Of a stretch of DNA of 64,000 nucleotides, positions 32,241-40,496 are shown piece after piece. The notes beneath the pieces were generated by a model. It was not told where the DNA came from. It saw only the letters and a list, made by a program, of their open reading frames with translations, and made no database searches. Location: NCBI RefSeq assembly GCF_026196735.1, contig NZ_JAPHUF010000002.1, positions 248,001 through 312,000 on the forward strand, written 5' to 3'. The stretch is from Sulfurimonas sp. GTDB taxonomy: Bacteria > Campylobacterota > Campylobacteria > Campylobacterales > Sulfurimonadaceae. The translations under genes were made by a program, and so were the position numbers. How positions within the stretch are numbered: position 1 is the stretch's first letter; each line of letters begins with the position of its first letter.

Positions 32241-32375
32241 ATGAGAAAAATTATCACAGCAATGCTTATAACATTAAGTTTAGCAGCAAGCGCTAGCGCA
32301 GCAGACACTCACGATGCTGATAAAGCAACGATATTAGGATGTGACTCTGATTGTGCAACAGGTATCTTGTACTAG
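32241..32375 (+). CDS. Small secreted peptide, 44 residues, unknown function
   Basis: An ORF too short for routine calling: 44 codons from ATG at 32241 to TAG at 32373. AAGGA lies 5 bases before the ATG. The first 20 residues form a textbook Sec signal peptide: basic MRK, a hydrophobic core IITAMLITLSLAA and an A-x-A cleavage site (ASASA). The remaining 24 residues are acidic (ADTHDADK) and end with two cysteines in CDSDC, then ATGILY. A disulfide or metal site is possible after export. I recognise no family. A promoter stands upstream, and overlapping hairpins lie just downstream. Expression is not proven, but the signal peptide plus ribosome site is hard to get by chance. Confidence 0.6.
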   Translation: MRKIITAMLITLSLAASASAADTHDADKATILGCDSDCATGILY

Positions 32376-32564: not shown

Positions 32565-33827
32565 TTAAAATTTCACTGATGCAATTAAACGGATAGCATC
32601 TTGTTTAAAATCAGGATCTGTTCTCATATCTACATCTCTATGAATATATATCCCTTTTAAATCAACAAGCTTAGCAATCTTAGTTACAACAATAATATCA
32701 AGTTCTGTTCCATCTTTCATAGAGTGAGCATCTGATTGCGTATTTTGTAACAAACATGTAAGTTTCACATCGTCAAATTTGTAGTTAGCACCAAGTTTCC
32801 AAGCTTTAGTATCGCGAAAACCGACTACAGCACCATCTTGAAATACTGCTTGTGTATATACTTTTGATTTATCACCTGTCGCGGCATTTGCAATAGTTGC
32901 TGTACCTGAATTACCCTCATCTGTTACAGAATAAGAAACATCAAGTGTAAGCTTATCAACTGTATATCCAATTTTTGCAGCAGTTATCATTGCATTGTCT
33001 GCTCCTGCAGTTGCTACATCAATTCCAGAGTTTTGGATACCAAAAAACAAGCCTGACATCTTGTACTCAGCATCTGCCCAGTAAGCTGTAAAATTTGAGT
33101 TTACATCATAGTACCATAGGTTAACTGCTAAATCGTCAATCGGTTTTATCATAGCACCAAAAGCGTAAGCAGCTTTTTTACCATCTGTCACAGTGTTAGT
33201 AGCAGAGTCGTATGTACTTCCAAAACCAAAAGACTCACCATTGTGCATAGTTGTACTTGGAAAGCCCGTATCAGTACCGTTTCCTGCACTAGCTCCACCG
33301 TTATGCTGGTTTATATATGCAGCTACTAAAGTAGTATTTGGAAGATCACTGTTAATTAAAACAGCTGCATCAAAGGTATTAAACGATGTATTCCAGCGTT
33401 CTGTAAAAAGCAAAGGAGTATTCAAAGCTTGACGACCTAAAATAACTGAAGTATTATCAATTCTGTAATCAAGATATGCTTCTGTAACCCACACTTGTGT
33501 TCTATAATAGTTTCCATTTTCATATCCTGCACCTGCAGATGAGATATCCTTGATAAAACTTTTTTCTAATCCAAGAGTATCAAGAGCAATAAGACCCACT
33601 TTACCTTTTAATCCATCCATAATATCTGCTTTTGCACTAAGCTCAAATGCAGCTTGTCCTACAGCAGCTTTTTGCTGAAACATATCAACACCGGAAGGAC
33701 TCGTGTCTTTCACCCCAGTCTGGTACCACAGTTTTGCCTCACCATTTACCGTAACATTTTCAATTGCGTATGCTGATGTTGCTAACATTGAAGCTAGTAA
33801 TACAGCAGTAATTTTAGATGATTTCAT
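32565..33827 (-). CDS. Outer membrane porin (epsilonproteobacterial Opr family)
   Basis: A 420-residue protein with a Sec signal peptide (MKSSKITAVLLASMLATSAYA). Many alternating strands follow (for example NVTVNGEAKLWYQTG, AAFELSAKADIMDGLKGKVGL, TSVILGRQALNTPLL), ending in an aromatic strand IRLIASVKF. The terminal Phe is the outer-membrane barrel assembly signal. The sequence resembles the OprD-like major porins of Campylobacterota. The transported solute cannot be told. Upstream it has a consensus-like promoter (TTGACA-N17-TAATAT on the minus strand) directly next to a four-unit 11-bp repeat, implying control by the adjacent OmpR-type regulator. Confidence 0.88.
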   Translation of the reverse strand: MKSSKITAVLLASMLATSAYAIENVTVNGEAKLWYQTGVKDTSPSGVDMFQQKAAVGQAAFELSAKADIMDGLKGKVGLIALDTLGLEKSFIKDISSAGAGYENGNYYRTQVWVTEAYLDYRIDNTSVILGRQALNTPLLFTERWNTSFNTFDAAVLINSDLPNTTLVAAYINQHNGGASAGNGTDTGFPSTTMHNGESFGFGSTYDSATNTVTDGKKAAYAFGAMIKPIDDLAVNLWYYDVNSNFTAYWADAEYKMSGLFFGIQNSGIDVATAGADNAMITAAKIGYTVDKLTLDVSYSVTDEGNSGTATIANAATGDKSKVYTQAVFQDGAVVGFRDTKAWKLGANYKFDDVKLTCLLQNTQSDAHSMKDGTELDIIVVTKIAKLVDLKGIYIHRDVDMRTDPDFKQDAIRLIASVKF

Positions 33828-33856
33828 CTTATCTCCCTACATATTTGAATTTATAG

Positions 33857-33885
33857 ATATTAAAAGTATGCGCTAACATTGTCAA
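33857..33885 (-). promoter_or_regulatory. Porin promoter
   Basis: On the minus strand TTGACA (33885-33880) and TAATAT (33862-33857) are separated by exactly 17 bases. The predicted start of transcription is near 33850, with AGGGAGA as ribosome site just before the ATG. Confidence 0.6.
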
Positions 33886-33888
33886 GAT

Positions 33889-33932
33889 TGTATTTACTAT
33901 TTCTTTACAATTTCTTTACAATGTCTTTAAAT
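33889..33932. promoter_or_regulatory. Four tandem 11-bp direct repeats, probable OmpR-family regulator sites
   Basis: The two central units, 33900-33910 and 33911-33921, are identical (TTTCTTTACAA). The flanking units 33889-33899 and 33922-33932 are degenerate (8 of 11 for the first). An 11-bp direct repeat is the site architecture of OmpR/PhoB winged-helix dimers. The array starts 3 bases upstream of the porin -35 box and lies about 26 bases from the -10 box of the divergent Spy-like gene. It spans roughly -39 to -82 relative to both predicted starts. Confidence 0.6.
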
Positions 33933-33958
33933 AGTATCTCATAATATTAATATGTCAC

Positions 33959-33964
33959 TATAAT
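33959..33964 (+). promoter_or_regulatory. -10 box of the Spy-like/response regulator/kinase operon
   Basis: TATAAT lies 90 bases before the ATG at 34055. The -35 position (ATCTCA) is poor, so activation from the adjacent 11-bp repeat array is plausible. Confidence 0.5.
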
Positions 33965-34054
33965 ATATAAAAACATTAGCTCCATATCAGCTTGAACAAG
34001 GTTTATTAAATGTTAAAGATATTAGAATATATAAATTTATAAAGGATATAGAAT

Positions 34055-34423
34055 ATGAAATTTGCAATTATACTACTGTTTGTTTCTACTCTTTTTGGGG
34101 GACATGAAGTTCATCACATAAACAAAGATCTCTCGCACTTGAATTTATCAGAAAAACAAAATGCAAAAATAAAAAAGGTTTTGCAGGAGTTTAGAAAAGA
34201 TTTAAAAAAATTTAAAGATGACAAAGAAAATATTCAAGAGAGAAAAAAAGAACTTTTTACTAAAGATGTTTTGAACTTAGAACAATTAAGCAAATTAAAC
34301 TATGAGCTATATAAAAAAACAAATGAACTAGAAAATAGGCTATTAAAAGATATACATGTTATTTTAAATAAAACGCAGAGATTTGAGTTTGTACATTATT
34401 TTGATGAATGGAAAGTAAAATGA
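34055..34423 (+). CDS. Spy/CpxP-like periplasmic protein
   Basis: A 122-residue protein with a short signal peptide (MKFAIILLFVSTLFG). The rest is highly charged and almost entirely helical. It starts with a histidine-rich GHEVHHINKDLSHL, then LNLSEKQNAKIKKVLQEF, which aligns in style with the LTxxQxxxI repeats of Spy/CpxP. Spy and CpxP are periplasmic chaperone-like proteins, and CpxP damps its own sensor kinase. The histidine-rich start might bind metal. The stop codon overlaps the response regulator start (ATGA), making a three-gene operon with a two-component system. The family call is based on size, helix pattern and context. Confidence 0.6.
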   Translation: MKFAIILLFVSTLFGGHEVHHINKDLSHLNLSEKQNAKIKKVLQEFRKDLKKFKDDKENIQERKKELFTKDVLNLEQLSKLNYELYKKTNELENRLLKDIHVILNKTQRFEFVHYFDEWKVK

Positions 34424-35091
34424 CGCACAATATATTACTGATTGAAGACGACTTGGATATGCAGACTCTTATAAGTGATTATCTACACAACTATGACTTT
34501 AAAGTTGTAGCATATGATAAACCAATAGATGCGCTTGAGAACCTTAAGAATAACTCTAGTTTATACTCCTTGGTTGTGCTTGATTTAATGCTGCCTCAGA
34601 TGGATGGTTTTGATGTATGCAAAAAAATTAAAGAGATGTTAGATATTCCAATAATAATTTCTTCTGCCCGGAACGAGATAAGTGATAAAATATTGGGATT
34701 TGAGTTAGGAGCAGATGATTATTTGGCTAAACCATATGAGCCTAGAGAGCTAGTTTTACGAATAAACTCTATTTTAAAAAGAGCAACCAACAGTTCTAAA
34801 ACAATAGGCGATTTTGAAATCAATGAAAACAAACACGAGATAAAAATAGATGGTCTACTGCTTGACTTAACCAAAATAGAATACGATATATTGGATCTTT
34901 TTTTAAAAAACATATCAAAACCGCTATCAAGAGAATCAATATCTAACGCTGTTACCGGCGTAGCATATAATTCAAAAGACAGAACCATAGATATGCACAT
35001 AAGCAATTTAAGACAAAAGCTGGGTGATGACCCAAAAAATTCTCATTACATTAAGTCTGTTTGGGGAATCGGATATAAATTTATAGGATGA
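34420..35091 (+). CDS. OmpR-family response regulator
   Basis: A 223-residue regulator when read from ATG at 34420, which overlaps the previous stop and has GGAAAG 5 bases upstream. An in-frame ATG at 34408 would add four residues. The receiver domain has the acidic pair ED10-D11, phospho-acceptor Asp55 (VLDLMLPQMDG), the conserved Ser/Thr in IIISSARNE and Lys in LAKPYEP. The C-terminal winged helix is complete (LTKIEYDILDLFL, RTIDMHISNLRQKLGDDP, TVWGIGYKF-type ending SVWGIGYKF). A kinase gene follows 3 bases downstream. Likely targets are the 11-bp repeats at 33889-33932. Confidence 0.93.
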   Translation: MTHNILLIEDDLDMQTLISDYLHNYDFKVVAYDKPIDALENLKNNSSLYSLVVLDLMLPQMDGFDVCKKIKEMLDIPIIISSARNEISDKILGFELGADDYLAKPYEPRELVLRINSILKRATNSSKTIGDFEINENKHEIKIDGLLLDLTKIEYDILDLFLKNISKPLSRESISNAVTGVAYNSKDRTIDMHISNLRQKLGDDPKNSHYIKSVWGIGYKFIG

Positions 35092-35094
35092 GAC

Positions 35095-36312
35095 ATGTCA
35101 ATATTTAATAAAATCATAATTCTTTTTGTAATTAGTTTTGCATCGATGATATTTGTTGCAAACGAGACAAAAAAACTTACAATAGATACAATTGAAACAG
35201 CATTAATTGAAAAATATATTCATGTTTCAGATGATTTGTTTGTATATTTTTCAGATAATGATATAAAAAAATTAGAAAAAAAAATTACGGCATTACATCT
35301 TAAAATAATTGAAGATGAAAAGCATTACATTGAAAAATCGGATGTTGTATATGAATACAGCAATAAACTATCAAGTATTAAAATCTTAAAGCATGAAGAT
35401 GACAGATATATACTATATATGAAATACTTGGACGATGAAATTTTTCTTATAGATAAACAACAGTCTATAAATTTTGAAGAGAGAGAGTTTTTAAAATATA
35501 TGGTCATAATCAATATATTTATAGTAATAGCTCTGTTTATAATACTTTTAAAGATGACATACCCGCTAAAAGATATAAGTAAAACTATAAAAAAGTTTGG
35601 TAATGGGCAATACTGCGCAAGAATAAAAACTAAGTGCAAGGCAGAAATAGGTGAGGTTGCCAATACATTCAACTCTATGGCAGAAAATATTGAGGGCTTA
35701 ATAGTATCTAGACAAAGACTTCTTCGCGATATTGGACATGAGCTTAAAACACCGATAGCCAAGTCAAAAATAGCTATAGAGATGATAGAAGACAGTAAAT
35801 ATAAAAAAATACTAAATAAAGCTCTTTCTCAGATAGATGATATGACAAGCGAACTCTTGTATATAGAGAAACTAAATGCGCAACAAAGCAAATTAAATAT
35901 AGGAACTTTTAACACAGAAACTCTTATTAGCGAATCACTTTCAAAACTATTTATTGAAGATGAGACAAAAGTTGAAGTAATTATTGAATCAAACTTTAGT
36001 ATAAAAGCAGATATAAACTACTTATCAATTGCGCTGAAAAATCTTATAGATAACGCACTCAAATATGGTACACAGCTACCTATATATATAGTTGCCAAAG
36101 CTAAGAGCATATCTGTTAAAAGTAAAGGTAAAGAGCTTGAAAAGCCTTTAGAATTTTTCTGTGAAGCATTTACTCAGGGTGACAACTCTAGAAATCAGTC
36201 CGGTTACGGTTTAGGACTTAGTCTAGTTAAAAGAATAATAATCAAACATAATTTTGAACTTTCATATGAATATGAAAATGGATTTAATGTATTTATAATT
36301 ACTACTCGTTAA
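35095..36312 (+). CDS. Sensor histidine kinase
   Basis: A 405-residue membrane kinase. Helix 1 is at about residues 5-22. A periplasmic sensor of roughly 115 residues follows, rich in acidic and lysine residues, with helix 2 near 139-158. A HAMP linker then leads to the HisKA domain with His215 in IGHELKTPIAKSK. The ATPase domain has an N-box (LKNLIDNALKYG) and a G2 box (SGYGLGLSLVKRI). The usual G1 box D-x-G-x-G is not visible; the place reads VKSKGKELEKPLEF. This may be a group-specific variant rather than loss of function. It is the last gene of the Spy-like/regulator operon. Confidence 0.9.
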   Translation: MSIFNKIIILFVISFASMIFVANETKKLTIDTIETALIEKYIHVSDDLFVYFSDNDIKKLEKKITALHLKIIEDEKHYIEKSDVVYEYSNKLSSIKILKHEDDRYILYMKYLDDEIFLIDKQQSINFEEREFLKYMVIINIFIVIALFIILLKMTYPLKDISKTIKKFGNGQYCARIKTKCKAEIGEVANTFNSMAENIEGLIVSRQRLLRDIGHELKTPIAKSKIAIEMIEDSKYKKILNKALSQIDDMTSELLYIEKLNAQQSKLNIGTFNTETLISESLSKLFIEDETKVEVIIESNFSIKADINYLSIALKNLIDNALKYGTQLPIYIVAKAKSISVKSKGKELEKPLEFFCEAFTQGDNSRNQSGYGLGLSLVKRIIIKHNFELSYEYENGFNVFIITTR

Positions 36313-36378
36313 TTGTATTGCAAAAACCAATATTAAAATTTATGTCCCATATTTAACCTGAAATATAGAGTAGAAAGG

Positions 36379-36384
36379 TATAAT
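36379..36384 (+). promoter_or_regulatory. -10 box of the ilvBN-lpxD operon
   Basis: TATAAT lies 31 bases upstream of the ilvB ATG. AGAGGAGA at 36400-36407 is a strong ribosome binding site. No leader peptide with repeated branched-chain codons is visible, so classical attenuation is not indicated. Confidence 0.5.
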
Positions 36385-36414
36385 TAGCAAAATTTTTATT
36401 AGAGGAGACCTTTC

Positions 36415-38109
36415 ATGCAAATAAATGGCGCACAAATGGTCATTGAAGCTTTAATCGCAGAGGGTGTTGACACAGTTTTTGGTTACCCTGGCGGAGCTAT
36501 CATGAATGTCTATGATGAGATATATAAGCAAGATGACTTTCAACATATATTGACAAGGCATGAACAAGCTGCTGTACACGCTGCTGAGGGTTACTCAAAA
36601 GCAAGTGGTAAAGTTGGTGTTGCTATGATTACAAGTGGTCCAGGTTTTACTAATGCAGTTACAGGATTGGCTGACGCGTATATGGACTCTATTCCATTGG
36701 TTGTTATTAGTGGTCAGGTACCTATGAGCCTTATCGGTACAGATGCATTTCAAGAAATAGATGCTGTTGGTATCAGTCGCTCATGTACCAAACATAATTA
36801 TCTTGTAACTGATGCTAAAGACCTGCCTCGCGTACTTAAAGAAGCATTTTATATCGCTTCAAGCGGTCGTCCCGGTCCAGTACATATAGATATACCCAAA
36901 GATGTAACGGCTCAGATTGCTGAGTTTGACTACTCAATTGAACTTGAGTTAGAGACTTATAAACCTCACACAAAAGGAAACCCTCGTCAAATAAAAAAAG
37001 CGATGGAAGCTATAGCTAAAGCTAAAAGACCGCTGTTTTACCTTGGTGGCGGTATCATTAACGCAAATGCTGCTTACGAAGTAAGAGACTTGGTTCACAG
37101 AACCGGTATTCCTGCTGTTGAGACTTTTATGGCCAGAGGCACATTAAGTCATGATGATGAGTTGCTTATCTCTATGCTTGGTATGCATGGCTCTTATGCA
37201 GCAAATATGGCAATGAGTGAGACGGATTTAGTTATCGGTCTTGGTGCAAGGTTTGATGACCGTGTAACAGGTAAGATTTCAGAGTTTGCAAAAAATGCTG
37301 CTGTAATACATGTAGATATTGACCCTGCATCTATTTCTAAGCTTATAAATGCCGATTATCCTATAGTTGGCGATGTTAAAAATGTTGTTAATGAGATGCT
37401 AGGTCTTTGCGAGCAGGTTAAATCTGAGAAATACGCATCTTGGAGAGAGACTGTAAAACATTTTGATGAACTTCATCCGCTTACATACCACGAAGATACA
37501 GATAGACTTAAGCCCCAATGGGTTATTGAGAGAGTTGGTGAGCTTCTTGGTGATGATGCAAATATCTCTACAGATGTTGGACAGCATCAAATGTGGACAG
37601 CGCAGTTTTATCCATTTAGCAGACCTCGTCAATTTATAAGTTCTGGCGGACTTGGCACAATGGGATTTGGTTTTCCTGCTGCTATGGGTGTTAAAGCAGC
37701 ATCTCCAGAGAAGATTAGCATAAACTTTACCGGTGATGGCTCTATCCTTATGAATTGTCAGGAGTTAATGACAGCAGTTGAGAAGAAATTACCTGTTATT
37801 AATATCATTTTGAACAATAACTATCTTGGAATGGTAAGACAATGGCAAACACTTTTTTATGATAAAAGACATAGTGAAACTGACTTGAGTGTTCAGCCTG
37901 ATTTTGTAAAATTATCAGAAGCTTTTGGTGGAATTGGATACAGGGTTACAACAAAAGAAGAGTTTGATGCAGCTTTAAAAGATGCAGTTGAAAAAAATAT
38001 CGTTGCATTTATTGATGTAGTAGTTGAGAGATTAGAAAATGTTATGCCAATGGTTCCATCAGGCGGAAGCTTATTTAATATGATGCTATTAGAGAAGAAG
38101 GAGAAATAA
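36415..38109 (+). CDS. ilvB: Acetolactate synthase large subunit
   Basis: A 564-residue ThDP enzyme that makes acetolactate or acetohydroxybutyrate, the first common step of branched-chain amino acid synthesis. The catalytic glutamate is Glu50 in TRHEQAAVHAAEGY. The FAD-binding middle domain contains LGARFDDRVTGK. The ThDP-Mg motif is GDGSILMNCQELMTAVEKK, ending in ILNNN. It shares its last base with the ilvN start, so the subunits are coupled. Confidence 0.96.
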   Translation: MQINGAQMVIEALIAEGVDTVFGYPGGAIMNVYDEIYKQDDFQHILTRHEQAAVHAAEGYSKASGKVGVAMITSGPGFTNAVTGLADAYMDSIPLVVISGQVPMSLIGTDAFQEIDAVGISRSCTKHNYLVTDAKDLPRVLKEAFYIASSGRPGPVHIDIPKDVTAQIAEFDYSIELELETYKPHTKGNPRQIKKAMEAIAKAKRPLFYLGGGIINANAAYEVRDLVHRTGIPAVETFMARGTLSHDDELLISMLGMHGSYAANMAMSETDLVIGLGARFDDRVTGKISEFAKNAAVIHVDIDPASISKLINADYPIVGDVKNVVNEMLGLCEQVKSEKYASWRETVKHFDELHPLTYHEDTDRLKPQWVIERVGELLGDDANISTDVGQHQMWTAQFYPFSRPRQFISSGGLGTMGFGFPAAMGVKAASPEKISINFTGDGSILMNCQELMTAVEKKLPVINIILNNNYLGMVRQWQTLFYDKRHSETDLSVQPDFVKLSEAFGGIGYRVTTKEEFDAALKDAVEKNIVAFIDVVVERLENVMPMVPSGGSLFNMMLLEKKEK

Positions 38110-38585: not shown

Positions 38586-39536
38586 ATGCTCTTTAGTGAG
38601 ATAGCAAAATATTTAAACAGTGAACTAGTTGGTGATGATTTAGAAATTGACTCAATGAATGAGTTAGAATTAGCTTCATCATCACAACTTACATTTGCAG
38701 TACATAAAAAATACGCTTCGCAACTATCTTATTCAAAATCAAAAGCCTTTTTAATTGTTGAATCTTTAATAGAATCACTCCCTCAACATACATCATATAT
38801 AGTCTGTGATGATGTGTCTTTATCAATGGCATATGCTACAAAACTTTTTGCACCAAAATTAATTGAACCGCAACTTCAGTCTGCTGTAATCGGTAAAGAT
38901 TCTTATGTAGATGATATGGCTAAAGTGGAAAATGGTGCAGTTATAGGCTCCAATGTAACTATCTTAGCAGGTGCATATATTGGAACTAAAGCAGTAGTAA
39001 AAGATAATACCATTATATATCCAAATGTAACGATATACAGAGATTGTATCATAGGTAGTGGCTGTATTATTCATTCTGGAACTGTAATTGGTGCCGATGG
39101 ATTTGGTTTTTCTCATACAAAAGAGGGTGTACATGTTAAAATCTATCAAACCGGAAATACTATTATAGAAGATGATGTGGAAATTGGTGCTAACTGCGCA
39201 ATAGACAGGGCCGTTTTCAACTCTACAGTAGTGAGAAAAGGTACAAAACTGGACAATTTTATTCATATTGCACATAACTGTGACATAGGAGAGCATTGTA
39301 TATTTGTGGCGCAAACCGGAGTAGGCGGGTCCACTAAGCTTGGACGCAATTGTGTTGTAAGTGGACAGAGCGCATTTACGGATCACTTAGATATCGCTCC
39401 TTTTTCTACTTTTACAGCCAGAAGCGGTGTTACTAAAAGTATAAAAGAGAGTGGAGGAGTTTACAGCGGTTATCCTCTTATGGAGCACAGAGAGTGGAGG
39501 CGACTTCAAACAAAAATAGCTAATTTAAATAAATAG
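38586..39536 (+). CDS. lpxD: UDP-3-O-acylglucosamine N-acyltransferase, first copy
   Basis: A 316-residue left-handed beta-helix acyltransferase of the lipid A pathway. The N-terminal uridine-binding domain has LTFAVHKKY near residue 35. Hexapeptide repeats run from about residue 100. The catalytic histidine is in HIAHNCDIGEHC (equivalent to His239 of E. coli), and the second conserved histidine is in DHLDIAPF. Both are intact. The C-terminal helices end LMEHREWRRLQTKIANL. It differs most from the second copy in the N-terminal domain and around the acyl-chain groove. It lies 3 bases after ilvN. Confidence 0.9.
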   Translation: MLFSEIAKYLNSELVGDDLEIDSMNELELASSSQLTFAVHKKYASQLSYSKSKAFLIVESLIESLPQHTSYIVCDDVSLSMAYATKLFAPKLIEPQLQSAVIGKDSYVDDMAKVENGAVIGSNVTILAGAYIGTKAVVKDNTIIYPNVTIYRDCIIGSGCIIHSGTVIGADGFGFSHTKEGVHVKIYQTGNTIIEDDVEIGANCAIDRAVFNSTVVRKGTKLDNFIHIAHNCDIGEHCIFVAQTGVGGSTKLGRNCVVSGQSAFTDHLDIAPFSTFTARSGVTKSIKESGGVYSGYPLMEHREWRRLQTKIANLNK

Positions 39537-39545
39537 GAGTTAATT

Positions 39546-40496
39546 ATGAATTTAAAAGAGATAGCTAAAATAATAAATAGTAATTTCAACGGAGAGGGCT
39601 TTGAAGTTACAAAAATGAATACTTTGAAAGATGCAACAAAAACAGAAATATCGTTTGTTGCAAACTCAAAATATATTAAAGAAATACAAGATTCAAACGC
39701 CGGTGCTATAATTGTTGACAAACATACAAAAGAGTATGTGCCGGATGACTGTCTAGCATTGGTTGTGGATTCTCCATACTGGCAGATGGCAACACTTTCA
39801 AAATATTTTGCTCCTCCAATTGAAGATGAAACTCTGCCTGTGGCTGAGATAGGTGAGGGTAGTAAAATCTCTGCAAAAGCAGAGATTGCCAATGGTGCTA
39901 AAATCGGTAAAAACAGTACTATCATGGCTCATGTATACATAGGGGCAGAGGCTGTTATTGGCGATAATACAATTATATACCCCAATGTAACCGTTTATAG
40001 AGATTGTAAGATTGGCAGTGACTGCATTATTCATGCAAATACAACTATTGGAAGTGATGGTTTTGGTTTTGCTACAAATAAACTTGGGCAACATAGAAAA
40101 ATTTATCAAAACGGTAATGTTGTAATAGAAGATGATGTAGAGATAGGAAGTTCAACAACAATAGATAGAGCGGTATTTGGTTCAACGCTTATCAAAACCG
40201 GTGTTCGCATAGACAATCTTGTTCAGGTTGGACATAATTGTGTAATTGGAGAGTATTCTGTTTTAGTTGCACAAGCCGGAATATCCGGCTCTACCACTAT
40301 GGGAAGAAATGTAGTTATGGGTGGACAAAGTGCAACAGCAGGCCATTTAAGTATTGCTCCATTTACAACAATGGCTGCAAGAAGCGGGGTAACAAAAAGC
40401 ATTAAAGACAGCGGCTTAACTTTTGCAGGGTTTCCATTGATGGAACACAAGATATGGCTTAAACTTCAGGCTAAAATTGCTAGACTACTAAAGTAA
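39546..40496 (+). CDS. lpxD: UDP-3-O-acylglucosamine N-acyltransferase, second copy
   Basis: Also 316 residues, and collinear with its neighbour. ISFVANSKY replaces LTFAVHKKY in the nucleotide-binding domain. The catalytic motif reads [12 protein letters not shown], and the second histidine is in GHLSIAPF. Both active-site histidines are present, so it should be active. The C-terminal half is strongly similar to copy one ([23 protein letters not shown]) while the N-terminal third is diverged. AGGAG precedes the ATG, 9 bases after the first copy. The sequence closer to generic LpxD appears to be this copy, but that is a judgement by eye. Confidence 0.9.

Follow-up and report, generated by a model that had tools for sequence, protein, structure and literature searches.

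Positions 33889–33932 of the window, by which we mean the whole 64,000-nucleotide stretch of Sulfurimonas sp. DNA analysed here, hold a minus-strand 11-bp direct-repeat array that is, judging from its periodicity and from the conservation of its core among relatives, a real and conserved predicted operator. The OmpR/PhoB-family response regulator encoded 0.5 kb away very probably reads this array, with an Opr-like porin gene as its target. We consider it well founded that this regulator (34420–35091) and the sensor kinase encoded next to it (35095–36312) own the array, and that the regulator binds it upstream of the porin core promoter, most likely as an activator. To our knowledge, two-component operators have been little mapped in free-living Campylobacterota, and the array with its adjoining regulator would make up a well-defined control circuit that is open to testing and of a type already familiar.

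On the plus strand, the array consists of TGTATTTACTA (33889–33899), two copies of TTTCTTTACAA (33900–33910 and 33911–33921) and TGTCTTTAAAT (33922–33932), so that the four 11-bp units of the preliminary description proved exact in position. Read on the porin strand, it runs TTGTAAAGAAA TTGTAAAGAAA TAGTAAATACA ATC TTGACA, that is, GTAAAG-N5-GTAAAG-N5-GTAAA with 7 bp from the array end to TTGACA. The genome is A/T-rich and a period of 11 bp lies near the helical repeat, which might point to a chance or purely structural repeat. However, 27 of the 33 lag-11 positions match in the array, the highest count for any stretch of 33 bp in the 64-kb window, whereas 60 Markov-1 random sequences gave a mean of 20.3 and a maximum of 24; likewise, the longest exact lag-11 run was 13, against a random mean of 8.6 and a maximum of 11. 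Sequence, spacing and downstream genes are moreover kept across genera with 0 control matches, as detailed below, and this conservation already refutes a chance or structural origin. Searches of the array's own genome, for it and for related sites, were made by patterns only. They returned the 22-bp double unit once in the source genome, and at most three mismatches added just one further place, on contig 17, the array's own overlapping registers aside.

To define the conserved parts of the element, column information was computed over 20 promoters of type A, the type of the window regulator. The half-sites at offsets 0 and 11 proved strong and a third at 22 weaker, with TTGACA following at offset 34, TATAMT at 49 and TATC at 60–63. 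In the window, all on the minus strand, the two conserved GTAAAG half-sites correspond to 33914–33919 and 33903–33908, and the third, GTAAA, which is often GTCAA among relatives, to 33893–33897. The distal outermost unit (33922–33932) is degenerate, with near-zero column information, and is not conserved among relatives; the operator is therefore better described as two GTAAAG half-sites plus a weaker third than as the four units first proposed. TTGACA (33880–33885) is nearly invariant and lies at a fixed distance from the array, either as a −35 box or as part of the regulator site. The porin promoter had previously been given as TTGACA-N17-TAATAT, a sequence that a promoter scan did find on the minus strand at 33885–33857, with TAATAT at 33857–33862. 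However, A2, A4 and T6 of TATAMT are invariant in the 20 promoters and the TAATAT alternative is without the conserved A2, so the porin −10 is probably CATACT (33870–33865), in which case TTGACA is no standard −35. Pairing of TTGACA with TAATAT as −35 and −10 is the other possible reading.

The predicted target gene (32565–33827, minus strand) is termed an Opr-like porin on the basis of matches to curated Opr subfamily models that stay below both cut-offs (47.7 bits against a cut-off of 100, and 45.7 against 150). On the plus strand, the array is followed by a gene for a putative small exported accessory protein of the CpxP/Spy/ZraP type (34055–34423). LTXXQ and Metal_resist matched in 16 of 20 members of this accessory family (best E 6e-10), the window protein itself lying below the cut-offs, and its model gave ZraP, CpxP and Spy as the top fold matches, albeit weak ones (E > 0.2). 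Then come the type-A regulator (34420–35091), taken as the array binder from its domains, recognition helix and comparison with relatives, and an ArsS-family sensor histidine kinase (35095–36312; NF038389, 287.3 bits against a cut-off of 250). Both regulator domains, the receiver (PF00072, E 4.6e-24) and Trans_reg_C (PF00486, E 4e-22), scored above cut-off, which confirmed the earlier assignment of an OmpR/PhoB-family gene at this distance. Downstream of the kinase lies an acetolactate synthase (ilvB-like) gene, judged by its sequence. The porin is directly divergent from an ilvB-like gene in five relatives (G005, G070, G045, G132 and G062); in the window the two-component operon stands between them (32565–36415). 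Elsewhere in the window, a short reading frame at 32241–32375 (plus strand) specifies a peptide of 44 residues that starts like a signal sequence, has a cysteine pair and gave no Pfam match, and two adjacent 316-codon plus-strand genes (38586–39536 and 39546–40496) look by eye like tandem LpxD-type acyltransferase paralogs.

Orthologs of the porin, 65–76% identical, were found in seven other genomes of the genus. Four of these, each from another species (G021, G017, G005 and G070), have the same element with identical spacing before the porin ortholog, and the distance from array to TTGACA is the same in all four, G017 having TTTACA. The porin orthologs of G132, G045 and G062 lack the array, and a search for a type-A regulator in these genomes found none, their best regulators being at most 58% identical (the G062 assembly is only 70% complete). 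This co-absence gave a Fisher value of 0.018. In G005, about 47 kb of a single contig separates the porin site from the regulator, so adjacency is not the reason for the site. Separately, an array was seen in G232 before a short unassigned reading frame with no porin match.

The element was then followed through the genus and the order with a strict pattern, GTMAAN6GTMAAN6GTN10TTKACA, and its reversed form as control. Of the 135 genus genomes, 12 matched it, with 15 sites in all; of the 399 genomes at the order level, 26 matched, with 28 sites. The control had 0 matches in both searches. Besides porins, such sites lie about 80–90 bp before SHP (DUF1924) genes, heading operons of the order SHP-DHC-cytochrome b/DHC-accessory protein-regulator-kinase. 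Among genus relatives, the element precedes every type-A SHP operon whose start is assembled (13 of 13); five genomes that escaped the strict pattern (G024, G144, G043, G064 and G101) have a tandem at the same place, one of them shifted by 1 bp. The type-A regulator occurs in 21 of 135 genus genomes (20, a fragment in G061 included, plus a contig-cut copy of G017), and all 12 genus genomes with a strict-pattern site carry it (hypergeometric 6e-12, uncorrected for ancestry; the genomes are related and the counts are not independent). In a second family at the order level, whose named members are Sulfurospirillum, sites again precede SHP operons. Array and regulator belong to one operon in the Sulfurospirillum and Sulfurospirillaceae loci, and also in Sulfuricurvum, where the half-site is the variant GTCAAG. 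A site shared between genera and with a named regulator would make the regulon readable directly from genomes. In G021 and G017, the gene behind a further array was an exported methionine-sulfoxide-reductase-like one, or else a chemoreceptor-like one with such a reductase gene next in line, divergent from a ribonucleotide-reductase-like gene (all by eye). These methionine-sulfoxide-reductase-like and chemoreceptor-like genes are possible further members of the regulon.

The link between regulator and porin is well supported because site and spacing are conserved and because site and regulator co-occur across genomes. The phosphorylated regulator would bind head to tail to GTAAAG-N5-GTAAAG and the weaker third half-site. 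The source genome encodes several OmpR-family paralogs, among them a type-B regulator that is 60% identical and has a similar site at its operon. Type-B operons in general carry related GTYAAG repeats at the same place, so with both paralogs in one genome the porin array might be read by another regulator, type B for instance. We regard this as quite improbable, given that the strict pattern co-occurs with type A, that in G005 and other genomes with type B the GTYAAG sites stay distinct, and that G045 and G132 have type B yet show no array at the porin. A candidate rule by which M or T in the recognition helix goes with A or C/T as third base of the half-site held within the genus and failed in Sulfuricurvum, which combines M with GTCAAG. 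As for the direction of control by the type-A regulator, OmpR-family regulators may be activators or repressors, and the array ends only 7 bp from TTGACA, which would suit repression of the porin. Nevertheless, we find repression unlikely, since activators usually bind upstream of the core promoter, as here, and since operons encoding the regulator itself are preceded by the same arrangement. Activation, read from the position of the site only, is accordingly the more probable effect on the porin. What comparison shows is the element with its spacing, kept among relatives and co-occurring with the regulator; that the regulator binds it, does so when phosphorylated, activates instead of repressing, and influences its own operon in any way is inferred.

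In relatives, and presumably in the ancestor, the system shares an operon with genes for SHP, which is an oxygen-binding cytochrome, for a diheme cytochrome and for a membrane cytochrome b, and the element precedes this operon. In the window, the SHP (DUF1924) gene that relatives have is absent from the locus, and only a relic of the 3′ end of the cytochrome b/DHC gene was found there (33991–34035, plus strand). This relic matched the intact cytochrome b/DHC genes of relatives with a tblastn E of about 6e-4 within the small region searched, and 33992–34078 aligns over 88 bp, at 86% DNA identity, with a longer relic of G017. The cytochrome genes have been deleted at this locus with a relic remaining, and their loss in the window lineage probably left the array of the porin next to the accessory-protein/regulator/kinase operon. 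Total loss of SHP from the window genome was also considered. No DUF1924 match was found in it, but the gene may lie in an assembly gap: the end of contig 12 bears a type-B site, GTCAAG-N5-GTTAAG ... TTGACA, directly before a gene start (L249:1501–1598), and contig 18 begins inside the diheme cytochrome gene of a type-B operon (L096:1–103). Contigs 12 and 18 are probably neighbours, and the gap between them would hold the SHP gene; we therefore claim loss at the window locus only. In G005 and G070, a DsbD-like gene and a peroxiredoxin-like gene take the place of the SHP genes ahead of the accessory, regulator and kinase genes, so that this two-component system also has another periplasmic redox setting.

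The preliminary description went further and had one regulator switch the porin and its own operon together from this single array between divergent promoters. Its porin half is well supported by conservation and co-occurrence; its other half is a possibility that falls slightly short of an even prospect. With the ancestral promoter gone at the locus, as the relic indicates, the operon needs a promoter within the 227 bp between the coding regions, which makes control from the same array plausible. A TATAAT at 33959–33964 (plus strand), 27 bp beyond the array, is the only candidate −10, found by eye and with no good −35, and CpxR is reported to act independently of site orientation (PMC5063474). 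On the other hand, the promoter scan found no consensus promoter for the operon on the plus strand downstream of the array, and the repeats point to the porin promoter. The equal distance of the array from both transcription starts, as first proposed, depends on that second promoter, for which the scan gave no support. Furthermore, in G021, the relative with the whole locus, porin and regulator operon each have their own array oriented to their own gene, and in G005 and G070 the regulator operon showed no array ahead of it. A dual-promoter switch is therefore only possible.

Taken together, a porin, a periplasmic repair enzyme and the SHP operon are linked through the site, and the combination suggests that the signal is one of envelope or redox stress. 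We tentatively suggest, while holding it somewhat doubtful, a Cpx-like envelope or redox regulon across Campylobacterales that is centred on SHP and extended in some lineages to the porin and the exported methionine sulfoxide reductase, the window circuit having swapped its targets and kept its operator. The locus would also be a clear case of a regulator that keeps its operator and loses its ancestral target genes.

Tandem-repeat sites are typical of OmpR/PhoB-family regulators such as PhoB and DccR of Campylobacter jejuni. The array resembles such sites in its 11-bp direct repeats near a core promoter and in the family of its predicted reader, and differs in half-site sequence. A literature search, with most subscription journals outside its scope, found no paper on this operator. 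The published CpxR site is GTAAA-N4-8-GTAAA (PMC5063474), and GTAAA-N6-GTAAA at 33919–33904 of the window fits this consensus. The recognition helix of the window regulator, DRTIDMHISNLRQKL, is nearly identical to that of CpxR, DRAIDMHISNLRRKL, and a putative CpxP/Spy-like periplasmic protein accompanies the system, as in CpxP-CpxR-CpxA of Escherichia coli. Unlike in E. coli, the regulator stays far below the cut-off of the CpxR equivalog (152.4 of 341 bits), the kinase is of the ArsS family and scores 87.0 bits against a CpxA equivalog cut-off of 486, the gene order is different, the site has three half-sites, and the targets are SHP or the porin. SHP operons with sensor-kinase genes (SK1–SK3) were described by Meyer et al. 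(2010; PMC2909971), with SK3 as a distinct type in Campylobacter fetus and Arcobacter butzleri; the accessible part of that paper describes no operator for the SHP operon. The operons of the relatives agree with this description in uniting SHP (DUF1924), DHC and cytochrome b/DHC with a regulator-kinase pair, whereas the window locus is without the cytochrome genes and it is the porin that carries the site.
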